NCBI GenBank assembly: GCA_947471505.1
Contig: CANIWM010000057.1
Location: forward strand, 1 to 41,493
Reading direction: 5' to 3'
Length of the DNA: 41,493 nt
From: Chthoniobacteraceae bacterium
GTDB lineage: Bacteria; Verrucomicrobiota; Verrucomicrobiia; Chthoniobacterales; Chthoniobacteraceae
Position 1 is the stretch's first letter; each line of letters begins with the position of its first letter. The position numbers and the translations under genes are program-made. Below, one piece after another: positions 1,253 to 40,596 of this stretch. The notes below the pieces were generated by a model. The model did not search any database. It was not told the DNA's origin and saw nothing but the letters and a program-made list of their open reading frames with translations.

Positions 1253-2609
1253 CGAAGACTCCGAAGATGATGATGTAGTAAAAGCAGACGAGGTAGAAAA
1301 GCGCCTGCACGACGACGGGCGATTTGCGCACGACCATGAGGTCGCCCGCGCGATATTGGAAGAGCTGAACGAGCAGGAGCGGCCAACAGTAGAAGAGTAG
1401 TTTCGCCACGCCGCGCAGGAGGTCAGCGTCGGGACGGACGTGGAGGAATGCTTTCGTCATGGCCCAAAGCTGGTGCGTATCGGTCGCGCGGAAAATCAGC
1501 CAGCCATACAGAGTGAAAAAGAACATGATGGCGATGCTGGGCCATTTCCAAAAGGGCTTGGGGAAGAGCCGCGTGGCGAGTCGGTGGAGGCAGAGGAGGG
1601 TGCCGTGATAGAAGCCCCAGATGACGAAGGTCCACGAGGCCCCGTGCCAGAGCCCACCTAGGACCATGGTGAGCAGGAGGTTCAGGTAAGTCCGCGCTTC
1701 GCCGTGACGGTTGCCACCCAGGGAAAAATAAAGGTAGTCGCGCAGCCAAGTAGAGAGACTGATGTGCCAGCGCCGCCAGAAGTCCTGCGGGTTTTTGGCG
1801 AAGTAGGGGAGGTTGAAATTGAGCATCAACTCAAAGCCCATGAGCCGCGCCGCGCCGCGCGCGATGTCGGTATAGCCGGAGAAGTCGCCGTAGATTTGCA
1901 GCGCGAAGCTGAGTGCGCCGATGAAGGCTTCGGCGGGGCTGTAGGTGCTGCTGTGGAATATCTTGTCCACGGTCAGCCCGAGATTGTCGGCGACGACCAT
2001 CTTTTTGAAGAGCCCCCAAAGGATGAGATGGCAGCCCTCCGCGATGTTGTCGCAGGTGACGCGGCGTGGCCGCTCGACTTGGTCAATGAGCGAGCGTGCG
2101 CGCTGGATGGGACCGGCGACCATGTGGGGGAAAAATGCGACGCTGAGAGCGAAGTCGCTGAAGCTCGGAGTGGGCTCGACTTCTCTCCGGTAAATATCGA
2201 GCGCGTAGCTCATGGACTGGAAGGTGTAGAAGGAAATGCCGACGGGGAGGACGATGTTCAGCGTGGCGATGTGCGCCTCGATGCCCGCTGAGTGGAGGAG
2301 GCTTTGAAGGCTGCTGGCGAAGAAATTGAAGTATTTGAAAAAGCCGAGAAACCCGAGGTTGAAGATGACACTCCACACGACGATCCCTTTCCGCCGTCGG
2401 GCATCGGTACAGCGGTGGAGCCACGCGCCGACGTAGAAGTCCACGGCGGTGGAGATGAAGATGAGGGAAAGGAAACGCCAGTCCCAGCAGGCGTAGAAAA
2501 AGTAGCTGGCGACCAAGAGCATCGCGTTCTGCTTCTTGTGGGAGAGGAAGTGATAGACGCCGAGGATGAGGGCAAAAAAGACGGCAAATTGTAGCGTGTT
2601 GAAGAGCAT
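1221..2609 (-). CDS. MBOAT family O-acyltransferase (AlgI-like)
   Basis: A polytopic membrane protein of 462 residues, close to the usual AlgI length. It contains the conserved GDFSGYTDIARG (241-252), WRRWHISLSTWLRDYLY (278-294) and GLWHGASW segments. His322 in the last is the expected catalytic histidine of the MBOAT family. Ten or more hydrophobic segments span the rest. The family moves acyl (usually acetyl) groups from a cytoplasmic donor across the inner membrane onto a polysaccharide or a carrier. The overlap with the SGNH gene downstream and the glycosyltransferases upstream point to O-acylation of the polymer made by this locus. A gap of 185 bp separates it from the exostosin-like gene, so it may have its own promoter. 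Confidence 0.93.
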   Translation of the reverse strand: MLFNTLQFAVFFALILGVYHFLSHKKQNAMLLVASYFFYACWDWRFLSLIFISTAVDFYVGAWLHRCTDARRRKGIVVWSVIFNLGFLGFFKYFNFFASSLQSLLHSAGIEAHIATLNIVLPVGISFYTFQSMSYALDIYRREVEPTPSFSDFALSVAFFPHMVAGPIQRARSLIDQVERPRRVTCDNIAEGCHLILWGLFKKMVVADNLGLTVDKIFHSSTYSPAEAFIGALSFALQIYGDFSGYTDIARGAARLMGFELMLNFNLPYFAKNPQDFWRRWHISLSTWLRDYLYFSLGGNRHGEARTYLNLLLTMVLGGLWHGASWTFVIWGFYHGTLLCLHRLATRLFPKPFWKWPSIAIMFFFTLYGWLIFRATDTHQLWAMTKAFLHVRPDADLLRGVAKLLFYCWPLLLVQLFQYRAGDLMVVRKSPVVVQALFYLVCFYYIIIFGVFDAQSFIYFQF

Positions 2610-2794
2610 CTATCGGGGCGCTTCAGAGTTGCCAGCTCGCTGCTGCAAAGTAGAACCAGAGCCTACATTCACTAAAATGCGGATGGATAACGAATTCAGG
2701 ATTTTTGAGCTGAGTAGAACGGTCATCCAGATACCGTCGGAGCGAATAGCATGTGGCACAAATATGTAAAGTGGTGAACCAATGGATTGCGCGA

Positions 2795-3781
2795 CTACCG
2801 CGCGACGAGTGTTACGAGCCGCCGTTTGAGATGTGAAAGTCTTCTTCTTACATAAAGTTTCAGCAGGATGATCGGCCGCAATAGTCTCATGATTCTTTCA
2901 TCAATCCATCGGTTGTTTTTAATCTCGACTAAGCGATCCACGAGGTAGTCAAATTCGTCCTCGAGTTGAAACCACTCCTCCCAGTTTTTACGTGCCAACC
3001 CCCCCATCTCTCGCCAGCGATCTTCGTATCTCGCGAGAATATCCGGCAGTTGATGTATCTGATTTTCTTTTACTCGGATCGAAAAACTTTCCCAGTCGGG
3101 CCCGACCGGTCGAATCCACTGGTCTGAAATGATGACCGGAACCAGCCCCATCTGCATGATCTCGAAGAGACGGATGCTGGATGTTCCTTGCCCCCGGGGG
3201 CAAAGCACGAAGCGGGACTTCATACAGGTATCAAGATACCTGTTTGTAAAATCCTCTCGATCCGGCTGGCAGGGCTTGAAATAATTAAAATCGGATGTGT
3301 TTTCGATTAACACGTCGGAGCGCCGGAAATCATGCCGGAACAATTGCCCTCGCATCTTGTGACTTTCCCGGCCCAAAAATGAAAAGAACAGCTCTCCCGT
3401 TCTGGGCTTGGCAGACATCCGCTCCACCGGATTTCCGCAGCGACTATGGCAATACGAATAGGTGCCTGGGCGAAAGCGGCCAAGATTTAACCAGGAATCG
3501 GGCATCGAAGTATAAATGCCCGGCACAAACCGAAGGGGGTAATCTGCCTCGAAGATCGTAAAGGTTTTGTTGGGGTATTGCCGCAGCAAAGGATGGATGC
3601 GCAAAGCTCGAAAATCGTCGTCGTCCCTGGAGTCAGTTATCAGAATGAAGTCGGCTTTCTCCGGGTCATCGATCAGGCGGTGTCTTTTGTTTCGGCTGAT
3701 TTTCTCTAGTTTGAGGAGATGCTGATAGAACCCTGTCCAAGCCTTGGGGCCTGTTTCGGCTGGAGTTAAGAAAATGTCCAT
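2795..3781 (-). CDS. Exostosin-like glycosyltransferase (GT47 type)
   Basis: A protein of 328 residues without a signal peptide. The segment at 189-222 (SRFVLCPRGQGTSSIRLFE, then MGLVPVIISDQW) is the hallmark C-terminal part of exostosin/GT47-like proteins: nucleotide-sugar binding with an arginine, a glutamate and the GxVPV turn. A basic, Arg-rich tail (about 295-328) could sit against the membrane. The family transfers glucuronic acid, xylose, galactose or related sugars in eukaryotes; bacterial members occur in capsule and lipopolysaccharide loci. The donor cannot be read from sequence. Base composition looks less GC-rich than in flanking genes, as often seen for genes in surface-polysaccharide loci. 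Confidence 0.8.
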   Translation of the reverse strand: MDIFLTPAETGPKAWTGFYQHLLKLEKISRNKRHRLIDDPEKADFILITDSRDDDDFRALRIHPLLRQYPNKTFTIFEADYPLRFVPGIYTSMPDSWLNLGRFRPGTYSYCHSRCGNPVERMSAKPRTGELFFSFLGRESHKMRGQLFRHDFRRSDVLIENTSDFNYFKPCQPDREDFTNRYLDTCMKSRFVLCPRGQGTSSIRLFEIMQMGLVPVIISDQWIRPVGPDWESFSIRVKENQIHQLPDILARYEDRWREMGGLARKNWEEWFQLEDEFDYLVDRLVEIKNNRWIDERIMRLLRPIILLKLYVRRRLSHLKRRLVTLVAR

Positions 3782-4838: not shown

Positions 4839-6008
4839 TTAGTTAGTGGCGAGCGATTGCTCGCATTGTGAGACGAAATATCGTGCAAAGGCGGGGGGGG
4901 ACCATTTTCTTTCGTATGCATCGGCTCTTGCGCGAGCATCCTGCGGAGCGGGGTGTGTGGTGGCGTAGATTTCTTCGAGCACGGAAGTGATGGCCGGCCA
5001 GTCCACATCTGCTTCCAACTCGTAGCCCATGTCGCCGATTTCTCGGACTTCAAAAGGCTCGAAAGGCTCATGCCATCGAATCGCGAGTGTGTCGGTGGCC
5101 ATCATGCCCCCGATGAGCAGTGTATCGCAGAGGCGATAGGGGATGCTTCGGCGAAAACCGGAAATGTTGACCACCGCCGAGGAACTGGCGATGTGCTGTG
5201 AGTATTCGGTTTCTGAAAGTGGGGGCGCGTAGAGCGCAGGGTCCTTGGTGCGCCAAAGCCGGGCGTCTATGTCAGGCTTTTTCATGTCCCGCAGTATTTT
5301 TACGATTTTGGAGCGTTTTTGATTCGGGTGGTGGATTCGCCCTGGATAGCGCGCGAGAAGCGTGGGTTCGCTGAAGTAGTTATATTGGGCAGGCAGGGGG
5401 GTGTGCGCTGTCCTTGGGGCAGGGTAGTCTATCGTTCCAAAGGAGGCGAAGATGCTGCACGTCTTGGGGGTCTGCGCCAATGCTTCCCACTGGCGCAGGA
5501 CTCGAAGGTTTCTGCGGAGGTTTAAGCTATGACCGAGTGGACGTCCGAGCATTCCGGGGCGGATTTTGTTTTGAAAAGTAAAGACATCCGGGTGGTAGGG
5601 AGCGCGGATGTGTTTGTTGATGGGAAATCCGGCGGGGTCAAAAGTTTTTGGGCACTGATATTTGAAGTAGAGGTCCACCGATTCGAGCAACGCAGTCGCA
5701 AACACGAAGGGGGAATCCGTGATGTCCACGGCAAAATTCATGGCCGCTCCTTTGTATTCAAAACGACCTGTGATGCAGATCGCATCCACGGGCGAACAGA
5801 AATCCACGAATGCAGGCGAGAGGCGGTGTGCGATGCGCATGACCTTGGGATGGTAGCGCAGGAGGCGATCCCACCAGTGTCCGCTGTATTCGATCTCGAT
5901 GGTGCCGGATTCCTTCAGCAATTCCAACCCGGTAATCAGCCAGTCGTAATAGGCAAGCGTCCTCGGCGGGAGGCTGTAGATGGTGATTTTCGGGACGCTG
6001 GACGGCAT
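4839..6008 (-). CDS. Unrecognised protein of the polysaccharide locus, possible GT-B type glycosyltransferase
   Basis: The ATG at 6008 gives 389 residues; a TTG five codons earlier is also possible. No signal peptide or membrane segment is visible. The family is not recognised with certainty. A C-terminal stretch (about 275-303: SSSAVVNISGFRRSIPYRL followed by CDTLLIGGMM) resembles the end of the nucleotide-sugar site of GT47/GT-B enzymes, where a small-residue strand leads to an arginine and then a Gly-Gly turn. It sits 8 bp before the methyltransferase and about 20 bp after the STELLO-like gene, so it is part of the same transcript. A glycosyltransferase is the best guess; a glycan-modifying enzyme of another fold cannot be excluded. 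Confidence 0.6.
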   Translation of the reverse strand: MPSSVPKITIYSLPPRTLAYYDWLITGLELLKESGTIEIEYSGHWWDRLLRYHPKVMRIAHRLSPAFVDFCSPVDAICITGRFEYKGAAMNFAVDITDSPFVFATALLESVDLYFKYQCPKTFDPAGFPINKHIRAPYHPDVFTFQNKIRPGMLGRPLGHSLNLRRNLRVLRQWEALAQTPKTCSIFASFGTIDYPAPRTAHTPLPAQYNYFSEPTLLARYPGRIHHPNQKRSKIVKILRDMKKPDIDARLWRTKDPALYAPPLSETEYSQHIASSSAVVNISGFRRSIPYRLCDTLLIGGMMATDTLAIRWHEPFEPFEVREIGDMGYELEADVDWPAITSVLEEIYATTHPAPQDARARADAYERKWSPPAFARYFVSQCEQSLATN

Positions 6009-26671: not shown

Positions 26672-28114
26672 TCAGGCGATGACGCCCCGGACGACATTGC
26701 CCGCGACATCGGTGAGGCGATAGTCACGCCCCGAGTAGCGATACGTCAGCTTCTCGTGGTCGAGCCCCATGAGGTGCAAAATAGTCGCGTGCAAGTCGTG
26801 GACGTGGACTCGATCCTCCACCGCCGTGCAGCCAAACTCATCCGTCGCCCCAAAGCTGAACCCCGATTTCACGCCGCCGCCGGCGAGCCACGTCGTGTAG
26901 CCGTAGTGATTGTGGTCGCGCCCCTTCGCTCCCTCCGAAGTCGGCGCGCGACCGAACTCTCCGCCCCAGACGATCAGCGTATCCTCGAAAAGACCGCGCG
27001 CTTTCAGATCATGGATGAGCCCCGCGATTCCTTGATCGCACGCCTTCGCGAGTTTCGCATGGCCGCCCACGATATCGTCGTGCCCCGTGTCCCAAGCGAT
27101 GTCGTATCCGTCGATGGAAAGCGACAGTTGCACCACCCTCACGCCCTGCTCGATGAGCCGGCGCGCAAGCAGGCAGCCCTTCCCGAATTCACTGTCCCCG
27201 TAAAGGTCCCGCGTCGCCTGCGTTTCCTTGCTGATGTCAAAAACCTCCGGCACCGAGAACTGCATCCGAAACGCCATCTCCATCGCCGCGATTCCCGCCT
27301 CCAGTCCCTGGTCGCGTTCCGCGCGGACGAGCTGCTCTTGGTTCAGTTGCGCCAGCAAATCCATCTGCCTGCGCTGCTCCACCGTCGAGAGACGCGCATT
27401 TTTCAAATCGCGCATCACCGCATCCGGCTTCATCTCCGCGATATTCACATAGCTCCCCGCATAAGCGCCCGGGAGAAACGCATTCCCCCAATTTGCCAGC
27501 GTGCATCTCGGCTGCGCACGCGGCGACATCGCGATGAAACCCGGCAAATCCTGATTCTCCGTGCCCAGTCCATACACCAGCCACGACCCCATGCTTGGGC
27601 GATTCGGCTGAAGCGCCCCCACATTCATCATCATCATGGCCCCCGCGTGCTCCGGGATGTCCGTGTACATCGAATGGATGAAACTAATATCGTCCGCGCA
27701 CCCGCCGACGTGAGGAAAGATATCGCTCACCCACTTCCCCGTCTGCCCGTATTGCTTAAAGGCAAACGGCGAAGGCATCAGCCCGTTTTTCGTATTCCGC
27801 AGCGTCTTGCGATTCACCGATTCCGGCCGCTCCCCCGCGTGTTTCGCCAGCTCCGGCTTATAATCGAACGTATCCACCTGCGATGGCCCGCCCGGCATGA
27901 AAAGCTGGATCACCCGTTTCGCCTTCGGCGCAAAATGCGGAGCCTTCACCCCCAGCGGCGACGCCGAAACCGACTCCCCCATCGCCGCATTCTGCCCCAT
28001 TAAAGACGCCAGCCCGATCGACCCCATCCCCGCCCCCAGCCGATTCAAAAAATCCCGACGAGAAAGCTGCGCGGCAGCGCGGCGAAAAGCGGCTTCGTGT
28101 TGTTGAAAAAGCAT
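26672..28114 (-). CDS. DUF1501 family secreted protein (second of three)
   Basis: A protein of 480 residues. The leader is longer than usual, with AAAQLSRRDFLNRLGAGMGS a Tat motif at about 13-32. Catalytic-type motifs: FMPGGPSQVDTFDYKP (about 69-84), GGEFGRAP, GRDHNHYGYTTWLAGGG, VHDLHATILHLMGLDHEKL and YSGRDYRLTDVAG at the end. This is the standard DUF1501 layout seen in thousands of PVC-group proteins. It is co-directional with the PSD1 gene upstream (312-bp gap containing a REPIN) and with the DUF1552 gene downstream. It is likely a periplasmic hydrolase of the sulfatase/phosphatase superfamily with unknown substrate. Confidence 0.92.
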   Translation of the reverse strand: MLFQQHEAAFRRAAAQLSRRDFLNRLGAGMGSIGLASLMGQNAAMGESVSASPLGVKAPHFAPKAKRVIQLFMPGGPSQVDTFDYKPELAKHAGERPESVNRKTLRNTKNGLMPSPFAFKQYGQTGKWVSDIFPHVGGCADDISFIHSMYTDIPEHAGAMMMMNVGALQPNRPSMGSWLVYGLGTENQDLPGFIAMSPRAQPRCTLANWGNAFLPGAYAGSYVNIAEMKPDAVMRDLKNARLSTVEQRRQMDLLAQLNQEQLVRAERDQGLEAGIAAMEMAFRMQFSVPEVFDISKETQATRDLYGDSEFGKGCLLARRLIEQGVRVVQLSLSIDGYDIAWDTGHDDIVGGHAKLAKACDQGIAGLIHDLKARGLFEDTLIVWGGEFGRAPTSEGAKGRDHNHYGYTTWLAGGGVKSGFSFGATDEFGCTAVEDRVHVHDLHATILHLMGLDHEKLTYRYSGRDYRLTDVAGNVVRGVIA

Positions 28115-28324: not shown

Positions 28325-28422
28325 GTAGCTCGACTTTCCAAAGTGGAGCTTCCACGTCTCCACCACTGAAAACGGTTCACCACTCCAAGCGCCTTGACTC
28401 GACATTGGAATGTCGAGCTACC
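28325..28422. repeat. REPIN-like element: two inverted GTAG-headed palindromes
   Basis: It sits in the 312-bp gap between the PSD1 and DUF1501 genes, which has no other feature. The outer ends are a perfect 10-bp inverted repeat (GTAGCTCGAC at 28325-28334, GTCGAGCTAC at 28413-28422). Each end carries a palindrome: AGCTCGACTTTCC/AAAGTGGAGCT (28327-28350, one mismatch) and CTCGACATTgg/AATGTCGAG (28399-28418, perfect). Compared on the same strand the two arms differ by a T-to-A and a matching A-to-T change that keep the stem paired. The GTAG head plus palindrome is the known signature of REP elements moved by RAYT transposases; none is encoded here. Confidence 0.7.
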
Positions 28423-28426
28423 CGCT

Positions 28427-30718
28427 TTACTGGATCTGCCGGAACTCGTGGGCGGAGAGGAGGACTTGGGCGTAGGATTTCCAGCGGGCTTGGGGGTCGG
28501 GGTCGTTGGCGGCGCCGGCTAGGAAGGCGATGCCGAGGTCGGTTTCGCGCGGGTCGGCGGGGCGGCTGTAGAGGAGGATGTAGGCGCGGCCGATGCGGGC
28601 GCGGTCGTCGTTGGCTTCGCGCGCTAGGCGCTCGGCGAATGCTTTTGCGCGGGCGGTCATGAAGGAGCTGTTCATCATGAAGAGGTATTGCTGCGGGACG
28701 GTGCTGGCGGTGCGGGCTTCGCTCGTGGTCCGGGGCGCGGGGAAGTCGAACATGCGCAGGAATTCGTCGGAAAGGAAGCGGTCGCCGTTGCGGCTGACGG
28801 TGCCGTAGAGGGTGCGGCGGTTGGTTTCCAGGATGCGGTCGGTGGGGGGGCCGCCGAGGGTGAGGTCGAGCTCGCCGGTGACGGAGAGGAGGCTGTCGCG
28901 CCAGGACTCGACTTCGGCGTTGCGCGGGTTCATGCGCCAGAGGAGGCGGTTGTCGCCGTCGGCGGCGAAGGATGCGGCGTTGTAGCGGCTGGTCATTTGC
29001 CAGGTGGCGGAGAGGAGGATGGTGCGGTGGAGCTTTTTGAGCGACCAGCCTTGCTCGACGAATGTGGCGGCGAGCCAGTCGAGCAATTCGGGGTGGGTGG
29101 GCTTGTCGCCGATGACTCCGAAGTTGCTGGGCGTGCGTGCGAGGGCGTTGCCGAAGTGATGTTTCCAAACGCGGTTCACGATGACGCGGGCGGTGAGCGG
29201 ATTGGCAGGGTCGGCGACGGCATCGGCGAGCTGACGGCGTCCGCTGCCCTCGGTGAAAAGCGGGGCGTTTTCTCCGGCGACGATTTGGAGGAAGCGGCGC
29301 GGGGCGTTTTCGCCGGGCTTGCGCAAATCGCCGCGGATGGCGACGGGCATGTCTTTGTTGCCGCTGTCGGCGAGGCCGTGGGCGCGGGGAATGGCGGGCG
29401 GGACGGCTTTGCGGAGACGCTCCAGCTCGGCCTTGAGTTCGGTGGTGTCGAGCTTGTCTTTCTCGGCGGCTTTGAGTTTTTGCTCCTGCTCCTTTACGGC
29501 CTTTTTTGCGCTGTCAAATGCGGCGATGACTTCCGGTGATGCGAGGGGGATATCGTTCGTGGAGGTGTTATTAAAAACGCCGGCGATGGCGTAGTAGTCG
29601 CGGGTGGGGATGGGGTCGAATTTGTGGTCGTGGCAGCGCGCACACGCGACGGTGAGCCCGAGAAAAGCACGGGAAAAAGTGTCCACGCGATCCGCAAGCG
29701 TCTCGGCGCGTGTCTGGGCCGTCGCCTCGGGATCGCCGCCGTCGCCGACATACGTGGGGCCGACGGCAAAGAAGCCTGTGCCGACTTTGGAATCTGCATC
29801 GGCGGAGATAAGATCGCCGGCAATTTGCGCACGCACAAACTGATCGTAAGGCATGTCGCGATTCAGCGCCGCGACCACCCAGTCGCGATACCGCCACGCC
29901 TCGGGAAGCGCGGCGGGGTCGAGCGCCCCGCCGAGGCCGTCGCTATAGCGCGCGACATCCAGCCAGTGACGCCCCCACCGTTCGCCATACTGCGGCGAAG
30001 CGAGCAGCGTATCGACGACTTTTTCAAAGGCATCCAGCGAGGCGTCGGCGAGAAAAGCCTCGGCTTGTCCGGGAGTCGGCGGGAGCCCCGTGATGTCGAG
30101 ATAGGCGCGGCGGATAAGCGCGTGCTTTTCGGCAGGAGGCGAAGGTTTCAGCCCGGCGGCTTCGAGTCGCGCGAGGACGAATGCGTCCACGGGATTGCGA
30201 ATCCATGCGGCGTCGCGCACAGCGGGCGGAGCGTGTTTTTGGACCTTCCGAAAGGCCCAGTGATCGGTGCGCCACTTTGCGAAATCGTATCCCTTTTTCT
30301 CTGCGACCGCCGCCGAAGCGCCCTTCTCCGGCCACGGACTGCCCATGCGCACCCACGCCTCCATATCGGCGATTTGCGCATCCGTGAGCCGCTTGTCGGG
30401 CGGCATCGCGGTGTCCTCGTCTTTGTAGCGCACGGCTTTGATGACGAGACTTTCGTCCGGCTTCCCCGGCACAACGGAAGGCCCACTCTCGCCGCCTTTC
30501 AAAACCGCAGCGTGCGAATCGAGCCGCAGTTCGCCTTTGATCTTCTTTGCCTCCGCGCTGTGGCACTTGAAACACTCGTTCGACAAAATGGGACGGATCT
30601 TGTTTTCGAAAAACTCCGCCTGCTCCGGCGTCGGAGCCTCAGCCATCGCAGCGACGCCCAACGACACAGCCATTAAAAGCGGCGTGGTTCTACGGATCGT
30701 CTGATGGAGTGCGGACAT
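28427..30718 (-). CDS. PSD1 protein: PSCyt1 / DUF1549 / DUF1553
   Basis: The ATG at 30718 gives 763 residues starting MSALHQTIRRTTPLLMAVSL with a signal peptide ending at AMA. The cytochrome domain has CFKCH at 49-53 and an AMPPDKRL Met further on. DUF1549 covers roughly 155-380 and includes AYLDITGLPPTPGQAE, WGRHWLDVARYSD, MPYDQFVRAQIAGD and a second haem-like CARCHDHKFDPI. A charged coiled coil (about 410-445, KAVKEQEQKLKAAEKDK) links to DUF1553 (from about 510: LTARVIVNRVWKHHFG, then QYLFMMNSSFM). It has the canonical layout, without the jelly-roll insert of the other copy. The product is probably a periplasmic haem protein acting with DUF1501. It is first in a PSD1, DUF1501, DUF1552 series. 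Confidence 0.92.
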   Translation of the reverse strand: MSALHQTIRRTTPLLMAVSLGVAAMAEAPTPEQAEFFENKIRPILSNECFKCHSAEAKKIKGELRLDSHAAVLKGGESGPSVVPGKPDESLVIKAVRYKDEDTAMPPDKRLTDAQIADMEAWVRMGSPWPEKGASAAVAEKKGYDFAKWRTDHWAFRKVQKHAPPAVRDAAWIRNPVDAFVLARLEAAGLKPSPPAEKHALIRRAYLDITGLPPTPGQAEAFLADASLDAFEKVVDTLLASPQYGERWGRHWLDVARYSDGLGGALDPAALPEAWRYRDWVVAALNRDMPYDQFVRAQIAGDLISADADSKVGTGFFAVGPTYVGDGGDPEATAQTRAETLADRVDTFSRAFLGLTVACARCHDHKFDPIPTRDYYAIAGVFNNTSTNDIPLASPEVIAAFDSAKKAVKEQEQKLKAAEKDKLDTTELKAELERLRKAVPPAIPRAHGLADSGNKDMPVAIRGDLRKPGENAPRRFLQIVAGENAPLFTEGSGRRQLADAVADPANPLTARVIVNRVWKHHFGNALARTPSNFGVIGDKPTHPELLDWLAATFVEQGWSLKKLHRTILLSATWQMTSRYNAASFAADGDNRLLWRMNPRNAEVESWRDSLLSVTGELDLTLGGPPTDRILETNRRTLYGTVSRNGDRFLSDEFLRMFDFPAPRTTSEARTASTVPQQYLFMMNSSFMTARAKAFAERLAREANDDRARIGRAYILLYSRPADPRETDLGIAFLAGAANDPDPQARWKSYAQVLLSAHEFRQIQ

Positions 30719-30835
30719 ACCTGCGGAATATCTACCGCATCCTCGAACCTTAGCCCAGCGCCAAGCGACACTCGGAAAGTTGACATTACCAATCCTCAAC
30801 CTGTCAGCATTCGTCCCGTGGCGGCGGAGCTTTTA

Positions 30836-31283: not shown

Positions 31284-31568
31284 TCAGTCGAGAGAGGACT
31301 TTCCGAGTCTGCGAGCCATGAGGCTGCAGGCAGCACCATAAATGAAGCCGGTTGAGTGGGAAGTTTTGACCTCATAATCTCGGGCAAGGCGGCGGTAGCG
31401 ACTGAGCAAAGCGAAGGTGCGTTCGACGATCCAACGCTTGGGCAAGAGCGTGAAGCCGGGGCCTATTTTGCGGATGATTTGGAGTTTCGCGGAGCGGCCC
31501 AGCTTGAGTTGGCGCACCCATTCGTTGTCTTTTGGTCGATGGTGTATGGTTTGGTTTTTGCCATCCAC
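31284..31568 (-). pseudogene. C-terminal fragment of an IS5-family DDE transposase
   Basis: Residues include DNEWVRQLKLGRSAKLQIIR and LLPKRWIVERTFALLSRYRR, the C-terminal signature of IS5-family transposases. The glutamate in VERTF is the last catalytic residue. The reading frame has a stop nine bases before the GTG at 31568, and nothing upstream in the element encodes the two catalytic aspartates, so the protein cannot be active by itself. The frame runs into the left inverted repeat, as in intact members. Confidence 0.8.
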
Positions 31569-40474: not shown

Positions 40475-40596
40475 GAAAGTAGCTCGCGAGTCCCTCGCGG
40501 CTGAATCCTACTCGCGAAGCGACCAATCAATTGAAGTGCCGCATCGCGAGAGGTGCAACGTCGCGAATCCCGACTCGTCGGGAGCGAGCTACTTTC
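40475..40596. repeat. REPIN-like element with 13-bp inverted ends
   Basis: It is bounded by GAAAGTAGCTCGC (40475-40487) and its exact complement (40584-40596), with 122 bp in all. It fills most of the 222-bp gap between the secreted propeller gene and the 76-residue gene; the end lies 2 bp from the latter's stop. The right arm holds a perfect TCCCGAC/GTCGGGA stem; the left arm has repeated CTCGCGAG-type inverted segments. The GTAGCTCG core at the ends is the same as in the element at 28325-28422, which suggests one family. Confidence 0.65.

Follow-up and report, generated by a model that had tools for sequence, protein, structure and literature searches.

The window, by which we mean the whole stretch of 41,493 nucleotides analysed here, carries between two minus-strand open reading frames (ORFs) a pair of inverted palindromes, each headed by GTAG and with the heads pointing outward. 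The relevant features are:

26672-28114, minus strand: ORF of 480 aa on the other side, its start 210 nt from the REPIN
28325-28421, no strand: REPIN core, a pair of REPs in inverted orientation, GTAG heads outward, separated by 49 nt (repeat finding and pattern search)
28325-28348, plus strand: left REP, T-type (TTTCCAAA), with a T-A pair at 28335/28342 and a broken G.G pair at 28332/28345
28349-28397, no strand: spacer between the REPs, which differs from copy to copy
28398-28421, minus strand: right REP, A-type (ATTCCAAT), with a perfect 9-bp palindrome after GTAG
28427-30799, minus strand: flanking ORF of 790 aa, its stop codon 5 nt from the REPIN
40479-40592, no strand: member of a second REPIN family (GTAGCYCGCGAGTCCC), separate from the element at 28325-28421

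The two inverted arms described in the first-pass annotation are present with the sequences given there, as seen both by repeat finding and by matching to a 20-nt REP pattern, and only the end of the element, placed at 28422, was one base too far. The arms are 24 nt each and 88% complementary, and each REP consists of GTAG and a 9-bp palindrome with a two-base loop; the left arm reads GTAGCTCGAC-T-TTCCAA-A-GTGGAG and the right arm, on the minus strand, GTAGCTCGAC-A-TTCCAA-T-GTCGAG. Four matches to the 20-nt pattern, at three mismatches or fewer, lie in the window (0.25 expected from shuffles); two of them are exact and are the two arms, and the other two are in the same palindromes on the opposite strand. 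Folding of the element as single-stranded DNA gives z-scores, against 200 shuffles, of -4.3 for the plus strand (-18.9 kcal/mol) and -4.2 for the minus strand (-19.8 kcal/mol). The copy is slightly decayed, with its left hairpin decaying at the G.G pair. We take the 790-aa ORF, by eye, to be a planctomycete-type cytochrome/DUF1549-DUF1553 protein and the 480-aa ORF to be of the DUF1501 type; an NCBIfam search gave no match for either. A 94-aa ORF at 31284-31568 (minus strand) presumably represents the end of an IS5-type transposase, which it resembles by eye.

The location just past the stop codon of the 28427-30799 ORF, together with a fold better than that of 200 shuffles, could point to a hairpin in RNA or DNA that is selected by the host, as a terminator or mRNA stabiliser, and is not a mobile repeat at all. 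We regard this as extremely improbable. The matching locus of a sister genome (G006), with a neighbouring gene of 98% identity, lacks the REPIN; the hairpin of the left arm is decaying; and there is no Rfam match at the gathering threshold in the whole window. A position downstream of genes is moreover usual for REPs, according to Di Nocera 2013 (PMC3733652).

A family of inverted GTAG doublets

The 6.07-Mb assembly contains 67 sites matching GTAGCTCGACNTT, 34 and 33 on the two strands, and the reversed patterns used as controls gave three and six. These sites fall in 40 places: 37 doublets, two REPs that lack a partner inside 140 nt (C2:48887 and C19:8429, each beside a different GTAG palindrome), and a chance match that has no palindrome (C1:145709). 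In all 37 doublets the GTAG heads point outward, and 33 are 95-97 nt long, the remaining four being 58, 58, 80 and 381 nt. The copies at C31:543 and C94:554 have the same left flank and possibly represent a single locus lying at contig ends. The family consensus is inverted doublets of GTAGCTCGAC[A/T]TTCCAA[T/A]GTCGAG, and the window element is a member of this REPIN family. The first-pass annotation had called it REPIN-like, had proposed a genome-wide search for the repeat, and had named as contrary evidence a total of one or two copies and no RAYT gene; the 67 sites and 37 doublets amount to dozens of copies, and a RAYT with the same flanks is present in another genome (L144, below), so that the REPIN call is borne out.

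At C2:48887, C19:8429 and C31:543 (L002, L015 and L028) the REPIN is interrupted by, or adjoins, a different GTAG palindrome family (GTAGCGGGG and onward), making nested repeats.

Two stem types

Two stem types occur in the family, the A-type (ATTCCAAT) and the T-type (TTTCCAAA), and pairing of an A-type with a T-type arm leaves two mismatches across the arms. Among the 37 doublets, 27 are mixed (16 TA and 11 AT), nine are AA and one is TT. The exchange of T and A between the arms of the window copy had been read as a compensatory mutation that conserves pairing, and as evidence for selection on the hairpin. Each arm is its own palindrome, and the exchange therefore keeps pairing within each of the small hairpins; between the arms it breaks pairing, the swap positions being open in the -18.9 kcal/mol fold of the window heterodimer. 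An A/A doublet, whose spacer is also different, folds at -35 kcal/mol with an unbroken 24-bp stem. Because the swap is family-wide, the window copy alone is no evidence of selection.

The hairpin pair is A-T in 40 of the 67 genome sites, T-A in 26 and something else in one (C1:145709), the search pattern having left the partner base free. With the pair again left free, 175 sites (not de-duplicated) from the 96 stretches listed in a scan of genome contigs (below) have A-T in 154, T-A in 17 and other combinations in four. Two arms with damaged heads, the right arm at C11:27624 and the left arm at C23:55449, have a mispair at the swap position; the pattern misses both, and hence they are outside the 67-site count. 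The swap pair covaries, though few independent events need underlie the covariation. GTAG REP heterodimers, which as here have two stem types per dimer, are described in passages of Di Nocera 2013 (PMC3733652), together with the suggestion that heterodimers escape clearance of long palindromes. An A/T doublet of the present family may persist because each hairpin stays foldable for recognition and the long inter-arm palindrome is weakened.

Outer arms and target duplications

Inspection of the flanks of the copies showed GAYGCGGGCGCAAAAAC ahead of the A-type REP and GCCGCGCCTCCGACTTTTTGCGCCCGCRTC behind the second REP. The arms, of 17 nt and 30 nt, enclose the REPIN and together form terminal inverted repeats (TIRs; GAYGCGGGCGCAAAAA). 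In ungapped comparison the outer arms are present on both sides in 13 of the 37 doublets, on one side in 14 and on neither in ten; with indels allowed, 15 have both. These 15 composites, with GAYGCGGGCGCAAAAA at both ends, are each 142-144 nt long. In ten of them the flanking 6-mers agree at five or six positions in exact register (derangement control: mean 0.57, maximum 4 of 15), the five failures being C25:43338, C46:34485, C85:222, C126:8580 and C137:1301. In free register a match of 5 bp or more is seen in 11 of the 15 (maximum 6 and mean 1.15 in permutations); C25:43338 and C85:222 pass once shifted, and C32:2643 in exact register only. The single G006 composite that was read has no clear duplication.

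The window copy consists of the core only, with outer arms absent on both sides. Since the arms are cut off at various points among the copies, the core-only copies could be eroded composites. One core-only copy, at C96:6305 (L086), lies within an unbroken frame that by eye resembles a Ser/Thr kinase; the REPIN sits between DFGIAKL and VGTPQYMAPEQ and lengthens the activation loop by about 27 residues.

Empty sites in a sister genome

Among members of the genus, G006 matches the window locus most closely, and about 2.0 of its 5.2 Mb were compared. Nine elements have both flanks matched there (C4:65863, C19:8429, C25:58588, C26:3650, C37:35912, C57:28325, which is the window copy, C80:19990, C88:12892 and C96:6305), and in all nine the REPIN is absent from G006; the flanks of C96:6305 are matched at only 75% and the counterpart is perhaps a paralogue. 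Two of the nine (C37:35912 and C88:12892) are clean empty sites, each with a single 6-mer and no palindrome. At C37:35912 the arrangement GCC-TCTTAC-[element]-TCTTAT-GCC here corresponds to GCC-TCTTAT-GCC in G006, and at C88:12892 the arrangement CTC-TTTAAT-[element]-TTTAAT-GGCC corresponds to CTC-CTTAAT-GGCC. The unit that arrived at these two loci runs from TIR to TIR and brought a 6-bp duplication, and the REPINs of the composites arrived inside a TIR/TSD element. An insertion bounded by GTAG and CTAC without duplication is not what the composites present; they are bounded by the TIRs and 6 bp.

The other seven loci are not clean, having diverged flanks or other DNA between them. At the window locus 30 other nucleotides replace the REPIN, and G006 yielded a clean empty site neither for the window copy nor for any core-only copy. 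A core-only element of G006 (L139) was considered as an orthologue of the window copy and rejected, as only the repeat aligns.

Search for a cognate RAYT

The genome has nine Y1_Tnp matches, in an assembly of 153 contigs that is 96.7% complete. A flank scan found this REP near none of the nine, where other repeats lie, and the closest pairs of a Y1_Tnp match and one of the 67 sites on one contig are tens of kb apart. One candidate, a CGAGCTAC in L092, lies in DNA that looks coding and was dismissed as fortuitous. Another RAYT of this genome (L095, C100:1-6500) has a further palindrome (GTGGCACGGGGCTTAGGAAAGCCCCG and variants), with three copies upstream and one downstream.

A pattern scan of genome contigs gave at least 96 stretches that carry the repeat. 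The record titles of 80 among the listed stretches name Verrucomicrobiota in 78, Chlamydiia in one and Proteobacteria in one, and this REPIN family is found in many Verrucomicrobiota. Most of the listed stretches hold bare doublets, commonly of 60-80 nt, with flanks that are apparently unrelated. A RAYT is present in one among the listed stretches, L144, from a MAG record (Akkermansia muciniphila AH-24oct19-276). It is a 249-aa frame at 2433-3179, preceded by four REP units of the family (one doublet and two singles, one single having changes in the loop region) and followed by two doublets. The Y1_Tnp gene with the same palindromes that the first pass had envisaged is thus found in another Verrucomicrobiota genome and at none of the nine matches in this one. 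In NCBIfam the L144 RAYT matches REP_Tyr_transpos best, at 59 bits; the REP_Tyr_transpos matches of the RAYTs, at 59 and 66 bits, fall short of the model's cut-off of 80. Its motifs (P0001) are NHVH, WQ and YIANNP, and by motif only it fits RAYT (TnpA-REP) subclass 2.4, for which passages of PMC6006769 give NH[IFV]H, WQ and YIxNNP.

A search with the L144 RAYT found a match in 19 of 57 genomes, this one included. Doublets of this family flank none of the 30 RAYT loci returned from the 57 genomes, and five of the 30 have isolated heads, at up to one mismatch, elsewhere. The repeat itself occurs in three of the 57 (this genome, G006 and G009).

The core is a REPIN by its structure, its copy pattern and its RAYT linkage elsewhere. 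The TIRs, the 6-bp duplications and the uniform 142-144 nt would also be expected of a plain MITE whose internal hairpins are REP-like by chance and in which a RAYT was never involved. For the origin of the core this explanation is refuted: the same core exists as bare armless doublets in many other Verrucomicrobiota genomes, and it lies on both sides of the RAYT gene in L144. It is left only for the present movement of the composites, and as a whole we find it very improbable.

Search for a transposase acting on the TIRs

A 6-bp target duplication with inverted ends is DDE-like, and since the ~143-nt unit duplicates 6 bp of its target, its behaviour is of DDE type and not of Y1 type. The search for DDE transposases covered the families DDE_Tnp_1 and rve. 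None of the three DDE_Tnp_1 genes of the genome has a TIR beside it, the closest TIR-like site mismatching at 4 of 16 positions, and rve has no match in this genome. At up to two mismatches there are 39 TIR-like sites in the genome, 25 adjoining a REPIN and 14 apart from one, as against ten for the reversed pattern. Inspection of nine of the 14 stray sites for a parent IS showed nothing obvious; for one of them, L127 near a contig start, the stretch inspected missed the site. In ten genomes of the genus, TIR pairs at one mismatch outside this genome were confined to the G006 composite. An autonomous IS with the same ends was found neither in this genome (up to two mismatches) nor in the ten of the genus (one mismatch).

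Origin and movement of the composites

We consider it likely that this is a REPIN family founded by a RAYT and enclosed by TIRs, with many copies having spread as a ~143-nt unit and the window copy being core-only. On balance, and with somewhat less assurance, we favour the view that the family changed engines, from the cargo of a RAYT to a passenger held between transposon ends of DDE type, in a genome that yielded no cognate RAYT. The family would have started as non-autonomous cargo of a RAYT, a Y1 (HUH) single-strand transposase. Within this genus the REPIN would then have been enclosed between the 17-nt and 30-nt arms that form the TIRs (GAYGCGGGCGCAAAAA), and a putative DDE transposase acting on these would have moved the composites, duplicating 6 bp of target. 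For the window copy we suggest either movement as a bare REPIN or a later loss of the arms.

A more conventional explanation has the REPINs driven by a RAYT throughout, with that gene absent from the assembly; the outer arms would then be a preferred palindromic target for REPIN insertion. RAYTs elsewhere do have matching REPIN flanks, and an assembly in 153 contigs at 96.7% completeness leaves room for such a gene. REP dimers within palindromes have also been reported, and read as target palindromes, in passages of PMC3733652. We nevertheless think this explanation unlikely. A target palindrome as the source of the outer arms is weakened by the two clean empty sites, which hold a single 6-mer and no palindrome, and therefore the arms and the REPIN arrived together. 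TIR-like sites free of a REPIN are near the control number (14 and ten), and Y1 transposases are not known to duplicate their target.

The capture of a REPIN family between transposon ends, which we favour, can be compared with several known systems. Like the REPINs of P. fluorescens SBW25 (Bertels and Rainey 2011, PMC3116915, in passages), those described here are foldable inverted REP doublets in dozens of copies, the doublets far outnumber singlets, and the family is tied to RAYT genes. They differ in that no cognate RAYT was found in the genome, and in that many copies lie in a TIR unit with 6-bp duplications, which the passages of PMC3116915 concerned do not mention. The composites resemble bacterial MITEs, as described in part of PMC3733652, in being short and non-coding and in having TIRs, target duplications and empty sites, whereas their interior is a REPIN family that exists alone elsewhere and no autonomous parent was found. 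There is a likeness also to GTAG-15 of Anabaena variabilis and CGTC-1 of Halothiobacillus neapolitanus (Di Nocera 2013, PMC3733652, in passages), in which the dimers are regularly within a longer palindrome and the palindromes are not found REP-free. There the palindromes are taken as targets, and the phrase 'target site' is absent from the text of that paper, whereas here the enclosing arms move with the REPIN, as the duplications and empty sites show. The unexplained palindromes around the REP dimers of A. variabilis and H. neapolitanus may have arisen in this way too.

On the usual view a REPIN depends on a RAYT, and the spread of a REPIN inside a target-duplicating unit with inverted ends amounts to a second dispersal route. 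We found no report of a REPIN inside a TIR/TSD unit in the open-access (CC-licensed) PubMed Central literature, the only precedent found being the palindromes around REP dimers in passages of PMC3733652. REPINs carried in this way could explain why some REP dimers lie within palindromes, and REP copy number is not always readable as RAYT activity.

RAYT domains within housekeeping proteins

Many of the matches from the search with the L144 RAYT sit in long open frames. On translation, RAYT domains are in frame within ClpB in four genomes (among them this one; a contig end truncates one frame), AlaRS in two (among them this one), RecG in two, CarB in two (one truncated where the stretch ends), and ThrRS and ValRS in one each. 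In two genomes a RAYT domain is joined to the start of RecF. The loci are:

L096 4637-7987, minus strand: in-frame RAYT in ClpB, this genome (C42)
L098 3466-7197, plus strand: in-frame RAYT in AlaRS, this genome (C1)
L269-L272, L276-L278 and L282-L286: in-frame RAYTs in relatives

Pfam analysis of six of these proteins confirmed the hosts and placed Y1_Tnp above the cut-off in four; in the L098 AlaRS it is below (20.0 vs 23 bits), and in the L286 RecG it did not reach E 0.001. The RecF host and the restriction/methylase-like hosts of L273, L274 and L279 were named by eye and are presumably as given. A 448-aa piece of AlaRS has a single match in this genome. In ClpB, CarB and RecF, RAYTs that share a site cluster with each other, and in RecG they do not; the AlaRS RAYT of G008 groups with that in ThrRS of the same genome, at 69% identity. 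Over the RAYT part, six of seven pairs have a dN/dS of 0.10-0.25, their dS being close to saturation; for the seventh it was not computable. The in-frame RAYTs are stop-free, occupy the same site in several genera and keep the HUH motif in nearly all cases.

These may represent a new type of long-term residence of a RAYT, and they raise the question of how a single-strand transposase persists for long inside housekeeping proteins. We found no report of RAYTs in frame in housekeeping genes in the open-access (CC-licensed) PubMed Central literature; in a survey of the Y1 enzymes, proteins of unexpected length were excluded and regarded as fusions or errors of annotation (passages of PMC6006769).

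A second REPIN family with its RAYT

The family represented at 40479-40592 has 71 sites for GTAGCYCGCGAGTCCC genome-wide at up to one mismatch, of which 63 are exact, and the two controls gave none. The RAYT at C1:181502-182077 has a doublet of this family on each side. Dozens of copies together with a RAYT in matching flanks, as anticipated in the first pass for the window element, are therefore seen in this genome for the second family and not for the family of the window element. We note that the family-2 RAYT in L097 ends with a stop codon (5124-5126) that is the TAG of the adjoining GTAG head, and that the same arrangement is present in L144, where the stop codon of the RAYT (3180-3182) is likewise the TAG of the adjoining head.
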